From NCBI GenBank assembly GCA_018711405.1, contig DVIH01000047.1:1-45602 (forward strand): a stretch of DNA of 45,602 nucleotides. The letters run 5' to 3'. Numbering within the stretch: position 1 is the stretch's first letter; each line of letters starts with the position of its first letter. The notes below the pieces were generated by a model that did no database searches, was not told the DNA's origin, and was given only the letters and a program-made list of their open reading frames with translations. The DNA comes from Candidatus Avibacteroides excrementipullorum (GTDB lineage Bacteria; Bacteroidota; Bacteroidia; Bacteroidales; Bacteroidaceae). Of the stretch, positions 8,366 to 37,525 are shown in pieces. The position numbers and the translations under genes are program-made.

Positions 8366-8423
8366 AGATCGAGCCGATACCGGGCAAAGATGGCGTACAT
8401 CCCGGGCGAAGATGGCGCACATC
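8345..8423 (+). repeat. 79-nt tetrameric intergenic element, copy E2 (overlaps the PLC stop codon)
   Basis: Cores at 8345 (GATCGGCTCGGTA), 8367 (GATCGAGCCGATA), 8389 (GATGGCGTACATC) and 8411 (GATGGCGCACATC) with 9-nt linkers. The PLC stop TGA (8363-8365) is in the first linker. This is the only copy next to a plus-strand gene, and it is flipped accordingly. Confidence 0.92.
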
Positions 8424-10837: not shown

Positions 10838-11776
10838 CTATTTGGTCCGTCTCACTGTGTGAAGCACCTTGCCCTCCTTGTTTATCATGTAAAGGCAAAG
10901 TTCCTTTTTATCTGCCGAAATGAGAGAAAAGCCTTCTTCCGAACTGCAAAACTGCGTTCCCTCAATGGGCTTTACCTTACGCGCCAACGAACCTGAGGAG
11001 TTCACCACATAATCAATCTTGCTGTCGGGCATGACTATGTGTTGGAAATTGTGTATATGCCCGCAAAGATACATGTCTACATTGGAATGCGCTTTCAGGA
11101 TGGTATTCACACGTTCCTGCATGTTGCGGCGTTCAATGTCATCTTTTCCCGTCTCGGCATAAATGGGATGATGTCCCACCACAAGCACCCAGTCTTCCTT
11201 AGCCGTGCTCAACACACCGTCCAACCACTTCAGCTGTTTGTCGATGTCCTGTTTGCATGCATCAGGATATTTGTCGCTTTCCTCACGGTATTTGTCTATC
11301 AGCGGCGTCGTATCTATCATGACAAGCCTGACAGTGACATCATTGTCTTCCACAACCAGAGTGTAATATCTGTCGGGCATATCCCAGCGCGCACTCCTGC
11401 CTGCATAATCCAATACAGCCTGAGTATTTCCCCTGTATTCATGATTGCCCAATATCGGATACCAGGGGAGCATCAGCTCCGGATGACTGTAGATAAGTTC
11501 ATAGTTTGTCATCCACAGCGGATCGTCCACGCTTCTCACTCCCTCGAAGTGATGCACGTCTCCTGCTGCCACCACGCATTCTATGCCTACCGTCTCGGCC
11601 ATTACTCCCATCAGTTCCGCAATGGGCTTTTGCTCATAATAGCCGTTGCGTCCCAAATCGTTGCCCATGTAGAAATTGAGGTCTTTTTCCAGTGCCTTCC
11701 ATTGCTCCGGTGTCTGAGCTGTCGCGGCAAGCGACAGCATCAGCACCCATAAACCTATTAAAATCTTCTTCATCAT
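10838..11776 (-). CDS. Secreted metallophosphoesterase (purple acid phosphatase-like)
   Basis: This is a calcineurin-fold phosphatase of 312 residues with a Sec signal peptide (MMKKILIGLWVLMLSLAATAQ). Metal-ligand motifs occur in order: ND in GNDLGRNGYY (38-47), GD in AAGDVHHF (70-77), GNHEY (110-114), GHHPIY (about 198) and GHIHNFQH (about 238). The order and spacing are closest to tartrate-resistant (purple) acid phosphatases. The start is either ATG 11776 or ATG 11773. The gene begins 19 nt after the TonB receptor stop on the same strand, so the two form an operon: receptor for import, phosphatase to release phosphate outside the cytoplasm. The PHO-box-like promoter upstream of the receptor supports a role in phosphate scavenging. 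The substrate is not determined. Confidence 0.88.
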   Translation of the reverse strand: MMKKILIGLWVLMLSLAATAQTPEQWKALEKDLNFYMGNDLGRNGYYEQKPIAELMGVMAETVGIECVVAAGDVHHFEGVRSVDDPLWMTNYELIYSHPELMLPWYPILGNHEYRGNTQAVLDYAGRSARWDMPDRYYTLVVEDNDVTVRLVMIDTTPLIDKYREESDKYPDACKQDIDKQLKWLDGVLSTAKEDWVLVVGHHPIYAETGKDDIERRNMQERVNTILKAHSNVDMYLCGHIHNFQHIVMPDSKIDYVVNSSGSLARKVKPIEGTQFCSSEEGFSLISADKKELCLYMINKEGKVLHTVRRTK

Positions 11777-11795: not shown

Positions 11796-14573
11796 TTACA
11801 GACTTATCTTTATGCCACCATTTACTTTCACTCCGTAATATTCCACCTGCATGGTCCTGTCAGGAGTGCCCTGATAATATCTCAAAGGCTGGTTCAACAG
11901 GTTGTTGGCTTCCGCATAGATTGTAAACTTAGCCTTTTTGCCGAACGTGTAGCTTGCGTTCACATCCAGATAGTTCACCTTGTCATAATATCTGTCAAGC
12001 TCTGCCGATTTGCCCATCTCGTCAATGAAGTCGGAAGCAAAGTTATAAGATAATCTCAAATTGAATCCTTTTTTCTCAAAGAACAATGAAGCGTTTGCCG
12101 TATGTGCAGGAGAACCGGGCAATCTCAATCCTGTCTCGTTTTCACGTCCCTCAAAGTTGAAGTTGTCTACTGCCGAATACGTGTAAGTATAGTTTCCGTA
12201 AATGCCTAAGCACTTCAATGCAGGAGTTATAAACCCGAGATCGCGCTGCAATGCCACTTCCACTCCGAGCAAGTCGGCATCACCGGCATTCTTAGGCTGG
12301 GATATTTCCTTGAAGTCCACATCCGGATATCCCTCGAATGCGCCGCTTGTCCTCTGATCCACGATGAAGTCATCTATGCGTTTGTAAAATACTCCGACCG
12401 AAGCAAGTCCTATGCTCTCGAAATAATATTCCAGGCTCAAGTCTACGTTGTATGACAATGTAGGAGTCAGGTCAGGATTGCCGAGACTGACTTTCTCATC
12501 GTTAAGGTCTATATTCATGCACGGCACAAGCGAATAGTAACTCGGCCTTGCCAATGTCTCGGTGAACGATGCCCTGAACTTCAGGTCATTGTTGATGTCG
12601 AACTTATACAGTATGCTCGGCAACCAGTTGATGTAGCTGTTGGTAGATTCGCCGGTGGGGACGAGGGTTTCATTTTCATCCCGGTCTATGTTCCAATTCA
12701 CTCCGGCGTATTTCAGATGAGTGTATTCCATCCTCAAACCGAGCACCAAAGTATGCCTCCGGCCCAAACTCTGGTCAAACCTATAGTAGGCAGAAGTCAC
12801 CTGTTCCCTCGCATTGAAGTTTCCTGACGACTCTTCCAATACCCTTTCGCCTTCCATGTCGTTGAAGTTCAGGCTGCCAAGATATGTCTTGTCGACGAAA
12901 TCGGTGGGAGTGTACTGGCTGCCCGGCATGAATCCGTCGCGTATCTGGCTTGAGAGATGCGACATATAGTCTGTGCCGTACATGTCTTCATAACTGCCCG
13001 TATAGTCATAGCAGGTTATGTCTTTATCCTTATACTTATTGGTATATTTGGCTCCGAATTTCAGCTTGTTGCCGAATTCACCGCGTGCCAGAGGCAATTC
13101 AAAGTCAACATGCGCCTTGATGTCTCTTTCCCTGATTACCTCATTGGCATTTGTCAGCTCGTCCATTTCCCATTCTCCGGAATGAAGCGATACCGGTGTG
13201 AGAGAATATGGCTGACGTCCGCCTGCATCGGCAAAGTCGAATGTCTGGTCTTTCAGCTTCAGTCCGAAATATCTTTCGTTGGGTCTGTCTTCGCCTGCCA
13301 TGGAATAGGATGCGCCCCAGTCCATCTGAACCCTGCCCAAGAGGTGTTCGCCGCCGAGCGAGAAGTCCATGGTCTGTTGCAATTCGAGACGTGCGTTTTT
13401 GTTGTCAGAAGAGCCGCCTTTGGTCTGGATTTCGGCTTTCATGTTTTCCGGACCGTCCATCAGGTCTTTGAACGAGAGGGCATATCTGTTTTCCCAGTCA
13501 TGACGACGGTTGTAGATTCCCTTGAAAGTCAGCTTGTGGTTATTGTTTATGTCATAGTCTATGCCGAGCGAATAGCTTTGACGCTGGCGGGTGACGTAAT
13601 ACTGGCGTGTCTGAGCCTCGCTCAACACCACATTGCCGTTGTCATCTATGTCATATTCAAACTCCGTATTGTCTGAGCCTACCGGCGCATTCTGATATGA
13701 GATGGCAGCCATGATGCCGAGTTTGTCATTGAAGAAACGTTCGCCGTAGCTGAGTCCCACATTGGCCTGCAACTTGTCGCTTATCCAATTATAGCCTGTA
13801 CCTACCGTAGCATTGAAAGTCCTCCTGTAAGGAGAGCTTTTCGTTACAAGATTTATGGAACCGCCTATGGCATCTCCGTCCATGTCGGAAGTCACCACCT
13901 TGTTGACTTCTATGGTCTGCACCATGTCGGAGGGTATGAGGTCGAGCTGCACATTGCGTATGTCTCCTTCAGCCGACGGGATTCTGTTGCCGTTGATGGT
14001 CACCGAACTGAGATCGGCCGATGTTCCCCTGACCTGTCCGAAACGCGCTTCCCCCTGGTCATACTGCACATTGATGCCGCTTATACGTTTCAAGGCATCT
14101 CCGATGTTCGAGTCGGGGAATTTGCCCACCATGTCGGCAGACACCACGTTCACGACTCCCAGTTCGTTTTTCTGAGAGTTTATCGCCCTTTTCTGACCGC
14201 GAAAGGCTCCCGAGATTTTCACTTCATCCAGCTGGACGCCTTCTGTCATGACTATATCTTTCAATATGGTTTTGTTTTCGAGCACTTCCACCGTCATTTC
14301 ATAGGGCTGGTAACCCACATAAGTCACCAATATGTGATACAGGCCCGGCTTCAGGTCGGGAAGCGTGTAAAATCCGTCTATATCGCTGATCACTCCTGTC
14401 TTGAGTTCTTTAATATAAATAGATGCGCCGGGCAGGGTGTGCTTGTCGACATCGATCACACGCCCCCTGATGGCGGCAGCCTTGTCCACATCGCTTTCCG
14501 GGTCGGCATAAACTGCCGTAGACGACAATGCAGCCGAAAGCAACGCAATTGAAAATAATTTAAGATTTATCAT
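11796..14573 (-). CDS. TonB-dependent receptor of the phosphatase operon
   Basis: This is a 925-residue outer-membrane receptor. A signal peptide (LFSIALLSAALSSTAVYAD) is followed by a CarboxypepD_reg-like domain (AAIRGRVIDVDKHTLPGASI to about 110) and a plug domain with GVVNVVSADMVGKFPDSNIG, ALKRISGINVQYDQGE and RGTSADLSSVTINGNRIPS. VVTSDMDGDAIGGSINLVT and a long barrel end at the terminal residues GGIKISL. The plug wording (P-D-x-N-I-G/D-A-L-x-R-I-x-G) is that of the TonB-Xanth-Caul type receptors rather than SusC, and there is no SusD. It is co-transcribed with a secreted phosphatase and preceded by a PHO-box-like repeat, so phosphorylated organic compounds or a product of phosphatase action are the best guess for the ligand. 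Confidence 0.93.
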   Translation of the reverse strand: MINLKLFSIALLSAALSSTAVYADPESDVDKAAAIRGRVIDVDKHTLPGASIYIKELKTGVISDIDGFYTLPDLKPGLYHILVTYVGYQPYEMTVEVLENKTILKDIVMTEGVQLDEVKISGAFRGQKRAINSQKNELGVVNVVSADMVGKFPDSNIGDALKRISGINVQYDQGEARFGQVRGTSADLSSVTINGNRIPSAEGDIRNVQLDLIPSDMVQTIEVNKVVTSDMDGDAIGGSINLVTKSSPYRRTFNATVGTGYNWISDKLQANVGLSYGERFFNDKLGIMAAISYQNAPVGSDNTEFEYDIDDNGNVVLSEAQTRQYYVTRQRQSYSLGIDYDINNNHKLTFKGIYNRRHDWENRYALSFKDLMDGPENMKAEIQTKGGSSDNKNARLELQQTMDFSLGGEHLLGRVQMDWGASYSMAGEDRPNERYFGLKLKDQTFDFADAGGRQPYSLTPVSLHSGEWEMDELTNANEVIRERDIKAHVDFELPLARGEFGNKLKFGAKYTNKYKDKDITCYDYTGSYEDMYGTDYMSHLSSQIRDGFMPGSQYTPTDFVDKTYLGSLNFNDMEGERVLEESSGNFNAREQVTSAYYRFDQSLGRRHTLVLGLRMEYTHLKYAGVNWNIDRDENETLVPTGESTNSYINWLPSILYKFDINNDLKFRASFTETLARPSYYSLVPCMNIDLNDEKVSLGNPDLTPTLSYNVDLSLEYYFESIGLASVGVFYKRIDDFIVDQRTSGAFEGYPDVDFKEISQPKNAGDADLLGVEVALQRDLGFITPALKCLGIYGNYTYTYSAVDNFNFEGRENETGLRLPGSPAHTANASLFFEKKGFNLRLSYNFASDFIDEMGKSAELDRYYDKVNYLDVNASYTFGKKAKFTIYAEANNLLNQPLRYYQGTPDRTMQVEYYGVKVNGGIKISL

Positions 14574-14599: not shown

Positions 14600-14634
14600 C
14601 AAAAGTATCGCGCGGATGTTTCATTACTGTTTCA
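14600..14634 (-). promoter_or_regulatory. PHO-box-like direct repeat with -7 box, promoter of the receptor-phosphatase operon
   Basis: Minus strand TGAAACA-GTAA-TGAAACA (14634-14617) is a 7-4-7 direct repeat of 11-bp period. Nine nt further on comes the -7 box TACTTTTG (14607-14600). No -33 TTTG is present at normal spacing; the repeat occupies that place, as PHO boxes do in E. coli. Confidence 0.55.
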
Positions 14635-14705
14635 AACTTTTTACGATGCTATGAACTTTGTGTAACATTGACATTACAAAAAGGCTTCATGAGAGAGGCG
14701 GCCGG

Positions 14706-14784
14706 GATGTGCGCCATCTTGCCCGAAGATATACGCCATCTTTGCCCGGGATGGCGCACATCTCCGCCAGGGATCGGCTCGATC
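14706..14784 (-). repeat. 79-nt tetrameric intergenic element, copy E3
   Basis: Plus-strand cores at 14706 (GATGTGCGCCATC), 14728 (GATATACGCCATC), 14750 (GATGGCGCACATC) and 14772 (GATCGGCTCGATC), with 9-nt linkers. Cores 1 and 3 are perfect reverse complements. It lies 101 nt beyond the stop of the PCMD-like gene, past that gene's own hairpin terminator; it is the only copy paired with a conventional terminator. Confidence 0.92.
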
Positions 14785-14885: not shown

Positions 14886-15848
14886 CTATTCGTAGACGAA
14901 ACGCACATTGTCTATCCAGAACTTGTTGCCGGGAGAACCTATATAGGCTCCTCCATGACTGGAAGAAAACCTCAGCACCACATGGGTGGGGGTCTCATCG
15001 GATGCGGCCCAACCTATTTCCCTGATGGGCACCATCTCTCCCCTGCTGTTGCGCGTGTAATAAGGGTCATCGTTTTTCAGCTGCTCAATGTCAGCCAGAT
15101 TTTTTTTGCCCGATATGTCTCCATACTCCAGCTTGACGGTATAGTCGTTCACCCAGTCGGGCTGTGTCTTTGTGAAACGCCTTATAGCCGTAGCCACACG
15201 CTTGGCATAGACATTACCGTCGGCATCTTCCCATCTCTTCTGCAACACCATGTACACTTCCGGATAGTCGGGACCGGCCACAGTCTCCTGACGTCCGAAT
15301 CCTGTTATCTTTTTCCTGTCGGGCTCTCCTGTGAGTTTGGTCTTGTAGTCAAACCTCAATGCCGCCGGACGCTTGGTGAAAGGCACTCCCATGATAAGTT
15401 TTCCCAGCGGGTTCTTGGTGCCTTTTATGGGTTCGTCCACTCCGCCCAGATATATACTGCCTCCGGCAAGCACCGATATGTTTATCAGCCCCAACACTTT
15501 CACTCTTTCCACCAGAGTTTCCATGCGCACGCACTTGCCGTGTCCCCTTACTTCGGGAAACACCGATGTGCTGCATTTGGTGACGCCACTCACTTTGGCC
15601 ATGACATTGGATGTCCTCCAAGGCGAGGACGCATTGAATATGAGAGGTTCATCTCCTTCGATGACTTTCTCCGGACCCACCTCATGGAGTATCTTGTGGT
15701 TGCCTCCTATCACAAGCGATTCTTTCACGTCTCGCGTCAGCCATCTGTCCATATCGCCGCAATTGAGCATCTCCTCCCTCTCCTGCCCGGAGGCGTTCAA
15801 CAGTCCTGCGGCGGCAAGCAAGCACGGCAAAAGTATTTTCTTCATCAT
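14886..15848 (-). CDS. Secreted PCMD-like protein, last gene of the sulfotransferase operon
   Basis: This is a 320-residue exported protein with a signal peptide (MMKKILLPCLLAAAGLLNASGQ); there is no clear lipobox. The body is beta-rich: it opens EEMLNCGDMDRWLTRDVKES, then SPWRTSNVMAKVSGV, RGHGKCVRMETL, and PFTKRPAALRFDYKTKL. It ends ETPTHVVLRFSSSHGGAYIG and FWIDNVRFVYE. This layout, a jelly-roll ending in an F-x-I-D-N-V-R/x-F motif, resembles the PCMD (putative carbohydrate metabolism domain) proteins of Bacteroidetes; I am moderately sure. It starts 26 nt after the sulfotransferase and is followed by the operon terminator. Its role is unknown; binding or presenting the sulfated product or a surface glycan is a guess. 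Confidence 0.7.
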   Translation of the reverse strand: MMKKILLPCLLAAAGLLNASGQEREEMLNCGDMDRWLTRDVKESLVIGGNHKILHEVGPEKVIEGDEPLIFNASSPWRTSNVMAKVSGVTKCSTSVFPEVRGHGKCVRMETLVERVKVLGLINISVLAGGSIYLGGVDEPIKGTKNPLGKLIMGVPFTKRPAALRFDYKTKLTGEPDRKKITGFGRQETVAGPDYPEVYMVLQKRWEDADGNVYAKRVATAIRRFTKTQPDWVNDYTVKLEYGDISGKKNLADIEQLKNDDPYYTRNSRGEMVPIREIGWAASDETPTHVVLRFSSSHGGAYIGSPGNKFWIDNVRFVYE

Positions 15849-15874
15849 AACAGTCAGTTTTCAGTTCAGTCTTG

Positions 15875-16981
15875 TCAAATCTTATAATCCCAATCGCGCA
15901 AGGCAAAGTCCCAATGCTCTTCTACCAACTTCACGGTGCGCTCTTCATATTTGTATTTGTTCTTCTTATAACCTTTCTTCTTGTTCAGATACGCTTCGAT
16001 AGCCTGCCTGGAATCTTCATATCCCGGCAGGTCGAGATATTCGTAAATATGTCTGGTCATGTCGGACGCATCGGCCTCGAAGTCCTCGAACTTTATCTCG
16101 ATCAGGTTCTTTTCCGGTATGAGATGCTTGTCGGCCTCGTAACGGTGATACAGTTTCGTGTAAACCGACAGTATGTTGCTTTCCAACTCCTCATTTGAAA
16201 TGTCTTCGAGCATCAAGGGCTGTATGGTGTTGGTGAAAAAACTGCGAGTACTCTCAAATACGGTGTAAGGATTGCGCATCAGGTAAATGAATTTGGCATT
16301 AGGAAACATTTTCACCAGCTCCCTCACCCTTCCAGTGTGCGGTGGATTCTTTGAGAGAAATTGTGTGCCTCCCGTATTCCACAGGCATATCCTTATGAGC
16401 TTGTTGAATATCTGCTCGAATACCTTTAGCTCTTCATCGGTTATTTTCTCGAAAGTGAGAAACCTGTCACAATACTCATTCATATATTTCGGCAGGAACC
16501 AGAAATTATAATAAGTATACGGCATCATGTTCGACAAGGCAAATTCTTCCTCCTGCGGCAGGTCTACGGCCAGCTCCATGTTGTCGGTCGGGCGTTTGTC
16601 GGGCATAAGCCACGACATGGTTTTCTTGAAGAAAGGCTGCCCGAACATCATGAGATGCGGAAATACAGTCTGATAAGTAGTGTTGTAGGCAAAATGCTTG
16701 TCGCAAGAGAACACATTGTGCACGAACGTGGTGCCGCTCCTCCAATGTCCGAGTATGAAAACCGGGTCATGCTCCAAAGGTTTGCCGGCAAGCAACTTTT
16801 CGTATCTGGAGTCTTGCAACGGCTTCAGACAGCTCAGCAAACGGCATACAAACTTGGTCAGCCTGTACTTGGTCAGATATTTCCTGTCTATCTGACGCCC
16901 TTTCGTTATCCCGTTAAATGTCCTCCAGTCAGCCCCGACAAGAGTATTGACCGGCAATTTGCTAAATTCCAACAGCCCCAT
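15875..16981 (-). CDS. PAPS-dependent sulfotransferase (Sulfotransfer_3 type)
   Basis: Transfers a sulfo group from PAPS to a hydroxyl acceptor in the cytoplasm. It is 368 residues with no signal peptide. The 5'-phosphosulfate loop is GHWRSGTTFVHN (78-89) and the 3'-phosphate motif is FIYLMRNPYTVFESTRSFF, landmark RNPYTVFES. It lies 3 nt after cysN and in the same unit as the PAPS-making genes. From memory, this arrangement matches the Bacteroides thetaiotaomicron cluster around BT_0416, whose sulfotransferase makes cholesterol sulfate. A sterol or other lipid acceptor is therefore plausible, but the acceptor cannot be read from sequence. Confidence 0.88.
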   Translation of the reverse strand: MGLLEFSKLPVNTLVGADWRTFNGITKGRQIDRKYLTKYRLTKFVCRLLSCLKPLQDSRYEKLLAGKPLEHDPVFILGHWRSGTTFVHNVFSCDKHFAYNTTYQTVFPHLMMFGQPFFKKTMSWLMPDKRPTDNMELAVDLPQEEEFALSNMMPYTYYNFWFLPKYMNEYCDRFLTFEKITDEELKVFEQIFNKLIRICLWNTGGTQFLSKNPPHTGRVRELVKMFPNAKFIYLMRNPYTVFESTRSFFTNTIQPLMLEDISNEELESNILSVYTKLYHRYEADKHLIPEKNLIEIKFEDFEADASDMTRHIYEYLDLPGYEDSRQAIEAYLNKKKGYKKNKYKYEERTVKLVEEHWDFALRDWDYKI

Positions 16982-16984
16982 AAA

Positions 16985-18733
16985 TCAAATCTTTTCTATT
17001 AAATCCTCAATGACACTTATCACATTCTTCTCGTCTACAATCTTCTCGTCTGACAAAGGCTTCTCGGCATCCGCATCGCCCACTATGCGGAACTTGACAA
17101 ACTCTTCGCGTGCATTTGCCATCGACAGTTCCGAACCGCAACATATCACGATAATGCCCCTGTTGCTCAACTTATGTGCCATCAATGCCACATCGCGCGG
17201 AGTCATCCCCTCTATGCCTGTGGAATCGAGATTGAGTATGACTGCAATCTTGCCTATGTCATACAGACGGCGCTCAAGGGTGTAGACCATCAGACGGACA
17301 TACGATTTGTCTTCGCCCGTAATCCAAAACACTTTTCCGTCTTGCTCCAGCCTCTTTTTCCACTCTGCGGATGAAACAAGCGATTCGCCTGATATCATCT
17401 TCTTCTTGTCTTCATCGGTTATGGCTGTGAACAGGTCTTTCAGGTCGGCCTTATCTATAATCATTCCCACAGCCGAAGTATTGTTGGTGATAGGGTCTAT
17501 CAGTATAAATGCCCCGCAGCTCTTGTTCTTGACATAAGGGTCAAAATACAATGGACGATTGGTGGTGAACACTGCGCGTCCTATTTCGTTGAGTTTTAAT
17601 TTGTCCACTTTAGACTGCGACATGGTGTTCACATCCACTTTATATCTGATGCCGTCAATGCGTACCCTGCTCGTATTTGTGGTCTGCTTTATGAAAAACT
17701 GTTTGTTCACATCCATATCTTCCTCATCCATCCATACAAGCATAGCCTCGAAAGTACGTCCTATGAGAGGCAGGTTGTCGGGATGCACAAGCATGTCGCC
17801 GCGCGAGATATCTATCTCATCCTCAAGTGTTAATGTCACAGACTGCGGCGGAAAAGCATAATCAAGATTACCGTCATAGGTGACTATTTCCTTGACCTTT
17901 GTCTTTTTCATGGAAGGCAGGACCATCACTTCATCGCCTTTGTGCACCACGCCCGATGCCACTTTTGCACTGAAGCCTCTGAAATCGAGATTCGGTCGCA
18001 ATACATACTGCACCGGATAACGAAAATCATCAAAATTCTGATCGGTACCTATTTCCACTGTTTCCAAAAAGTCGAGCAAAGACTTTCCTTTGTACCATGG
18101 TGTCCTGTCGGATTTTTTCACCACATTGTCTCCCTCAAGCGCAGACAATGGGATGTATTGCACATCGGGTATGTTTAGTTTGCTTACGAACTGCTTGTAT
18201 TCTGTCACAATCTCATTGAACCGTTCCTCCGAGAAATCCACAAGATCCATTTTGTTCACAGCCAGCACCACATGTTTTATGCCGAGCAGTGAAACCAAGA
18301 AAGAATGGCGTTTGGTCTGTGTGATGACTCCTGTCCTCGCATCTACAAGTATCACAGCAAGATTGGCTGTGGAACCGCCTGTTATCATGTTGCGGGTATA
18401 CTGTTCATGTCCCGGAGTATCGGCTATGATAAATTTCCTCTTATTGGTGGAGAAATATCTGTAGGCCACATCTATGGTTATGCCCTGTTCCCTTTCTGCC
18501 TTCAGCCCGTCAAGCAACAAGGCATAGTCTATATGGTCGCCCGCATTGCCCACACGCTTGCTGTCTCTTTCCAGAGCATCAAGTTGGTCTTCGTATATTT
18601 TTTTACTGTCAAACAGCAGACGGCCTATCAAAGTGGACTTACCGTCATCGACAGAACCTGCCGTAAGAAATCTCAAAAGGTCTTTTTTCTCATCATTGTC
18701 GAGAAAAGTCTTTATATCTATTTTCTGTTCCAT
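16985..18733 (-). CDS. cysN: CysN, sulfate adenylyltransferase GTPase subunit, with a degenerate APS-kinase-like C-terminus
   Basis: CysN couples GTP hydrolysis to CysD-catalysed formation of APS from sulfate and ATP. The protein is 582 residues, about 100 longer than plain CysN. It has the translational-GTPase motifs GSVDDGKS (26-33), [12 protein letters not shown] and NKMD, followed by two beta-barrel domains. The extra C-terminal part from residue 468 reads [59 protein letters not shown]. This can be laid on the APS-kinase fold (W-x-T-G-x-x-x-S-x, ALERRL, E-N-I-R-R-I-A-x-x-A-K-L-x-x-x-x-G-I-I-V-I), but the [10 protein letters not shown]-loop is gone. A complete cysC lies upstream, so the domain is probably non-catalytic. 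It sits 21 nt after cysD. Confidence 0.92.
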
Positions 18734-18754
18734 AATGTTCTATGCAATTAATTA

Positions 18755-19666
18755 TCAGAAATACCCCTCGCGTTTTTTCTGCTCCATACTTGCCTCTTGG
18801 TCGAAATCGATGACTCTGGTGGTTCTTTCAGACTTGGTGGTGGTCATCATCTCTTCCACAATCTTCTCTATGGTATCGGCATTGCTTTCCACAGCTCCGG
18901 TCAAAGGCCAACAGCCCAATGTGCGGAAACGCACCATCTTCATCTGTATCTTGTCTCTGTATTTTTCGGGCAGGCGGTCATCATCGGGCATTATCAGGTT
19001 GCCGTCTATCTCCACTACCGGACGCATCTTGGCAAAATACAACGGCACTATCGGGATGTTTTCCAGACGGATGTATTGCCATATATCAAGTTCCGTCCAG
19101 TTTGACAACGGGAAGACACGGATACTTTCTCCTTTTTGGATTTTAGCATTGTAGATGTCCCACAATTCCGGACGCTGGTTTTTAGGATCCCACTGGTGGA
19201 AACGGTCTCTGAAAGAGAATATCCTTTCCTTTGCCCTCGACTTCTCCTCATCGCGGCGTGCGCCCCCGAATGCCGCATCAAACTTGTATTTGTCGAGCGC
19301 ATTAAGAAGAGCCTGAGTCTTCATCAGGTCGGTATGCACCTTGCTGCCATGAGTGAAAGGACCTACGCCTTCGTTGAACGCCTTCATATTTGATTCCACT
19401 ATAAGGTTCCAGCCGTATTTCTTGGCATATTCATCGCGGAAACTTATCATCTCCTTGAACTTCCATTTCGAGTCTATATGCATCAGCGGGAAAGGCACCT
19501 TGCCTGGATAGAAAGCTTTTTCGGCCAGACGCACCATGACAGAAGAATCCTTGCCTATGGAATATAGCATCACAGGATTTTCAAACTCTGCCGCAACCTC
19601 ACGTATTATATGTATAGATTCTGCTTCGAGCTGTTTCAGATGGCTCAGTTTATAATTCTCACACAT
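18755..19666 (-). CDS. cysD: CysD, sulfate adenylyltransferase catalytic subunit
   Basis: CysD is the PP-loop ATP pyrophosphatase-type subunit that adenylates sulfate to APS with CysN. It is 303 residues from ATG 19666 ([20 protein letters not shown]); the track start at 19672 is a GTG two codons earlier. The nucleotide-binding PP-loop appears as [19 protein letters not shown]. Other family segments are [53 protein letters not shown] and [14 protein letters not shown]. It ends with the common tail [10 protein letters not shown]. It is 13 nt downstream of cysC and 21 nt upstream of cysN, firmly in the operon. Confidence 0.96.
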
Positions 19667-19679
19667 AGTCACACTATCT

Positions 19680-22956: not shown

Positions 22957-23035
22957 AATCGGCTCGGTATCGGGCAAAGATGGCGTACATCTTGCTCCGG
23001 TACCGAGCCGATCATGGCCGAAGACCGAGCCGATC
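22957..23035 (-). repeat. 79-nt tetrameric intergenic element, copy E4
   Basis: Plus-strand cores at 22957 (AATCGGCTCGGTA), 22979 (GATGGCGTACATC), 23001 (TACCGAGCCGATC) and 23023 (GACCGAGCCGATC), with 9-nt linkers. Cores 1 and 3 pair over about 12 bp. It begins 58 nt after the stop of the PepSY-like gene. On the minus strand the last core runs into TTCTTTTTGC. Confidence 0.9.
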
Positions 23036-30038: not shown

Positions 30039-30117
30039 GATGTGCGCCATCTTTGTCCAAGATGTCCTACATCTTTGCCCGGGATGGCGCACATCCCGGG
30101 CAAAGATCGAGCCGATC
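30039..30117 (-). repeat. 79-nt tetrameric intergenic element, copy E5
   Basis: Plus-strand cores at 30039 (GATGTGCGCCATC), 30061 (GATGTCCTACATC), 30083 (GATGGCGCACATC) and 30105 (GATCGAGCCGATC), with 9-nt linkers. It begins 25 nt after the stop of the SH3/zinc-ribbon gene. It creates the false N-terminal extension of the MATE ORF. Confidence 0.92.
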
Positions 30118-37446: not shown

Positions 37447-37525
37447 GATGTGCGCCATCTTCGCCCGGGATGGCGCACATCTTTGCCCGACACCGAGCCG
37501 ATCATTGTCCATGACCGAGCCGATC
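37447..37525 (-). repeat. 79-nt tetrameric intergenic element, copy E6
   Basis: Plus-strand cores at 37447 (GATGTGCGCCATC), 37469 (GATGGCGCACATC), 37491 (CACCGAGCCGATC) and 37513 (GACCGAGCCGATC), with 9-nt linkers. Cores 1 and 2 form a perfect 13-bp hairpin with a 9-nt loop, followed on the minus strand by TTTTTTGC, the form of an intrinsic terminator. It begins 35 nt after the stop of the DUF5686 gene. Confidence 0.93.

Follow-up and report, generated by a model that had tools for sequence, protein, structure and literature searches.

Receptor-phosphatase locus and its promoter

The window, that is, the whole stretch of 45,602 nt of Candidatus Avibacteroides excrementipullorum DNA that was analysed, carries on its minus strand a gene for a TonB-dependent receptor (positions 11796–14573; 925 aa; CarbopepD_reg_2, Plug and beta-barrel domains; TIGR01782), followed by a gene for a purple-acid/TRAP-type metallophosphatase with a signal-peptide-like start (10838–11776; 312 aa). 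This two-gene operon agreed with the description in a first-pass annotation of the same DNA. The phosphatase gene was present in 46 of 50 distinct receptor loci and adjoined the receptor gene in nearly all of them; three of the four loci without it had too little downstream sequence. Receptor orthologs, which were about 53%–72% identical, occurred within the family and in named genomes of Prevotella, Mediterranea, Paraprevotella, Xylanibacter, Marseilla and others. Upstream of the operon and on the same strand (14886–19672), the window encodes a PCMD-domain protein, a sulfotransferase, a GTPase with EF-Tu domains and a PAPS-reductase-family protein, a gene set that suggests sulfate activation and sulfation.

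The promoter of the operon contains a Bacteroidota -7 element of the type TAnnTTTG, TACTTTTG (14600–14607, minus strand), separated by the 9-nt spacer TCCGCGCGA from the exact 18-mer TGAAACAGTAATGAAACA (14617–14634, minus strand). This 18-mer is the direct repeat TGAAACA-GTAA-TGAAACA and covers the -33 position. The 7-4-7 repeat that the annotation had placed nine bases before TACTTTTG was therefore confirmed, and the absence of a -33 TTTG that it had claimed also held, as neither TTG nor TTTG was found 18–22 nt from TACTTTTG, the sole nearby TTTG being 25 nt away. However, the window contained seven exact 7-bp repeats whose copies start 11 bp apart, compared with 3.3 ± 2.4 in simulated sequence, and the TGAAACA pair on its own is thus not significant. 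Exact TGAAACA-N4-TGAAACA occurred once in the genome, with no recurrence before phosphate genes, and allowing one mismatch yielded only two other genomic sites, one of which lies at the start of a coding sequence.

The reported pair constitutes the last two units (5 and 6) of a six-unit array of 11-bp direct repeats, a proposed triple PHO box, at 14613–14678 on the minus strand. From 14678 to 14613, the units read TGTAATGTCAA, TGTTACACAAA, GTTCATAGCAT, CGTAAAAAGTT, TGAAACAGTAA and TGAAACATCCG, and the last of them starts 16 nt before the -7 element. The distal pair TGTAAT-N5-TGTTAC (units 1 and 2; 14662–14678, minus strand) resembles the pst-type motif more than units 5 and 6 do, and unit 3 (GTTCAT) is a poor match. 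The array is supported by its register in receptor orthologs and by a unit matrix derived from 14 pst promoters from other genomes, the genome of the window being left out. When the matrix was applied as six units at 11-bp steps to both strands, the top score in the window was 24.0 at 14618–14678, whereas six-unit scores across the 45.6-kb window averaged -41.8 (SD 10.7). The six best-scoring positions listed all overlapped the array at 14613–14678, the sixth scoring 8.5. It is the larger array, and not the reported pair alone, that is beyond chance.

Copies of a dispersed element that share the core GATGGCGCACAT and often form inverted pairs were also observed in the window (14707–14761, 8389–8422, 22979–22990, 30040–30094 and 37448–37480). 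In the genome of 2.2 Mb, the core was matched exactly 278 times and the reversed pattern not at all. The copy immediately preceding the array showed a good RNA fold (z -3.5), and another copy lies upstream of the pst array of this genome. The element appears to be a palindromic repeat of a REP-like or mobile kind.

Conservation of the array in orthologous receptor promoters

Across the 50 distinct receptor promoters, the hexamer self-match at a lag of 11 was 298, compared with 48 ± 9 in shuffled sequences, and smaller peaks were found at lags of 22 and 33. The pst-trained matrix scored at least 11 bits in 42 of these 50 promoters and reached p < 0.05 against shuffles in 45, as against four of 141 further genes from these loci that reached 11 bits, although the receptor promoters are related and non-independent and these counts overstate their independence. 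The sole control gene exceeding 12 bits was phoB itself (locus L081). Among 90 offsets upstream of the -7 element, the six with the highest unit scores were 16, 60, 27, 71, 49 and 38 nt. TTG at 18–22 nt was found in one of 31 receptor promoters versus nine of 33 controls. Despite the kinship of the sequences, such an 11-bp register across orthologs would be hard to explain otherwise. The few orthologs without a clear array include those in L031 and L061; in L031, where the gene order is swapped, no array was recognised by eye before the phosphatase gene.

Recurrence at phosphate genes

The annotation had proposed a search for the repeat before pstS, phoU or other phosphatase genes. Related arrays were indeed found in this genome before pstS-pstC-pstA-pstB-phoU and before the genes for a PHO4-family transporter and porin O/P, and a shared element thus precedes pst and other phosphate genes. 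What recurs is an 11-bp array of TGTAAY/TGAAAC-like units, and not the exact TGAAACA pair. The pst array (TGTCAT-N5-TGTAAC-N5-TGTAAC) includes the only exact TGTAAC-N5-TGTAAC of the genome and is 1 bp off the 16 + 11n register. The array before the PHO4-family transporter and porin O/P genes consists of four units (TGTAACACTTT, TGTAATATCTA, TGTATCAGATA and TGTCACATGCT), the last of which starts 16 nt before the -7 element TAATTTTG. The same 16-nt spacing was found in arrays before a SusC-like gene at a contig end and before a second TonB receptor gene with a downstream 510-aa lipoprotein-like gene. The second receptor and its 510-aa partner, which has no Pfam match, lie at 2316–6674 of L123 (contig C120); the two could be similar to receptor-lipoprotein pairs that Flavobacterium uses at low Pi. 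Units matching the E. coli consensus CTGTCAT (TGTCAT or TGTCAC) are present in the pst, PHO4 and C125 arrays of this genome, and none is present in the window array.

In this genome, no good array was detected with the pst-trained matrix at the Pit-phoB-phoR cluster. Two-unit sites with one mismatch allowed were not enriched genome-wide (six matches versus 14 for the reversed pattern); counts alone therefore prove nothing, and location and register carry the evidence. The site TGTAACATGAATGTAAT, of the form TGTAAC-N5-TGTAAT, was noted approximately 110–130 bp before a P-type Ca-transporting ATPase gene (L045, 3570–3732; contig C88), where the promoter geometry does not fit.

From 37 receptor promoters, none of them in the genome of the window, a 36-bp sequence model (R1) was built and scanned over 101 genomes of the family. 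It gave 33 matches at E ≤ 0.02, whereas the same model with reversed columns (R2) gave three. At least 22 of the 33 matches precede genes for receptors, phosphate transporters, PstS, PhoU_div, phosphatases or a phosphodiesterase, a nuclease or a porin-like family. The downstream genes comprised the receptor itself (three), Na/Pi cotransporters (four), PHO4 transporters (two, one by similarity to the PHO4 of the window's genome), TonB receptors or SusC-like genes (three), a porin-like outer-membrane family (five) and genes for PstS, PhoU_div, a type I phosphodiesterase/phosphatase, an endonuclease/exonuclease/phosphatase protein and a non-specific nuclease. The porin-like proteins matched no Pfam family at 1e-5 and were not truly similar to the porin O/P of the window's genome. 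For the other 11 matches, the downstream gene was unassigned or its relation unclear. In the genome of the window, R1 was scored on part of the candidates and recovered the window site in part.

PhoB and PhoR and their linkage to the operon

The genome encodes PhoB (NF053854, 351.8 bits; cut-off 270) and, after it, PhoR (NF053855, 557.1 bits; cut-off 500). The recognition helix of this PhoB, DRTVDVNITRLRK, is close to that of E. coli PhoB, DRTVDVHIRRLRK, and unlike the helices of the genome's two remaining full OmpR-family response regulators. In relatives, phoBR adjoins the receptor operon in five loci (L062, L064, L066, L017 and L081). Directly upstream of the receptor-phosphatase operon lie phoB-phoR in L081 and phoR in L017; in L062, L064 and L066, phoB-phoR is divergent from the operon. 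The gene order in L066 is phoR-phoB, divergent from receptor-phosphatase-porin-like gene-pstS, and the porin-like gene is preceded by a box of its own. This phosphate island spans 1844–10854 of L066 and includes a further gene resembling pstC.

Interpretation of the array

A PHO box consists of two 11-nt direct repeats, and its consensus differs between species (PMC4415409). The window array likewise includes at least two 11-nt direct-repeat units, each with seven conserved and four less conserved positions. The array, its detection with the pst-trained matrix and the recurrence at phosphate genes supported the PHO-box reading of the repeat in the first-pass annotation. Judged from sequence, the array is very probably the operator of a PhoB-activated phosphate-starvation promoter, i.e., a Bacteroidales PHO box.

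This arrangement is reminiscent of the phoA promoter of E. coli K-12, whose repeats begin 27 and 16 nt ahead of the -10 element TATAGT. In both promoters, two head-to-tail 11-nt units replace the -35 or -33 element, and their starts are 27 and 16 nt away from the TA of the -10 or -7 element. In contrast to phoA, the unit here is TGTAAY/TGAAAC rather than TGTCAT, the -7 element is TAnnTTTG, and there are six units instead of two. Because units 5 and 6 share the phoA offsets, PhoB likely binds them head-to-tail over the -33 position and contacts the primary sigma factor. We infer the following course of activation. When phosphate is scarce, PhoR would phosphorylate PhoB, and PhoB dimers would occupy the 11-bp units in a head-to-tail orientation, with three dimers on the six units. 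The strong sites would be those at -16/-27 and -60/-71 from the -7 element, with a weaker middle pair. The promoter-proximal dimer, lying over the TTTG-free -33 position, would contact the Bacteroidota primary sigma factor and recruit it to TACTTTTG. The resulting induction of the TonB receptor and the purple-acid-type phosphatase would serve phosphate scavenging.

Other explanations of the repeat were considered. Tandem repeats of approximately 11 bp are common targets of OmpR-family regulators, and the genome encodes four Trans_reg_C proteins; another member of the OmpR/PhoB family, such as RprY or the third regulator of this genome, might therefore bind the array. This is improbable, however, given that the same kind of array is found before pst, PHO4, Na/Pi, PstS and phosphatase genes, that the regulator pair linked to the operon in relatives is phoBR, and that PhoB has a recognition helix different from those of the two remaining full response regulators. 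TGAAAC could also represent the -35 element of an alternative (ECF) sigma factor, with the second copy being incidental, since GAAC or AAC is frequent in ECF -35 elements and Bacteroidetes receptor genes are often under ECF control. A -35 element leaves unexplained why up to six repeats are kept in an 11-bp register, and the TAnnTTTG -7 element conserved here is a normal primary-sigma element; in an unsystematic look, no ECF or anti-sigma gene was noticed at the locus. We regard ECF control as very unlikely. Least credible of all is that the 7-4-7 match arose by chance within an AT-rich promoter region. The seven such repeats in the window against 3.3 expected, together with the uniqueness of the exact pair in the genome, would fit that explanation, but the six-unit array and the independent pst-trained matrix speak against it, and the register in receptor orthologs already contradicts it.

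Related systems are described in other Bacteroidota. In Bacteroides fragilis, the pstC promoter region is bound by PhoB, on which the expression of phosphate genes depends (PMC3547664). The genome of the window encodes homologous PhoB and PhoR, whereas the available portion of that PhoRB regulon account defines no site sequence or repeat geometry, and the word TonB is absent from its main text (PMC3547664). In Flavobacterium johnsoniae, the TonB receptor Fjoh_0545 (Plug, CarbopepD_reg_2 and OMP_b-brl_3 domains) is encoded in the phoBR operon and strongly induced by Pi depletion (PMC8115612). This resembles in kind the receptor-phoBR linkage seen here in relatives; the text of that study contains no mention of a Pho box or of a promoter (PMC8115612). 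Riemerella anatipestifer PhoP, a phosphate-linked (PhoPR) OmpR-family regulator in Bacteroidota, has a DAP-seq motif whose most conserved bases, TTTAACA, are close to TGTAACA; in the accessible part of that report, the motif is described as ArcA-like across 583 targets and is not tied to phosphate genes (PMC9603813). Among open-licence papers, no Bacteroidetes PHO box associated with TonB was found.

Taken a step further, it seems rather likely that the array is a six-unit PhoB operator of three tandem dimers, held in an 11-bp register to TAnnTTTG, that controls a previously unrecognised receptor-phosphatase scavenging system, which in some species is part of a phoBR-pst island. The array would provide a concrete PHO-box sequence and geometry for the dominant gut order, in which PhoB is known and its site is undefined in the literature examined. 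The placement of PhoB in E. coli phoA would have been kept despite a very different primary-sigma promoter. The conserved receptor-phosphatase pair points to a phosphate-scavenging system, and the phosphate regulon of Bacteroidales would become predictable from sequence.
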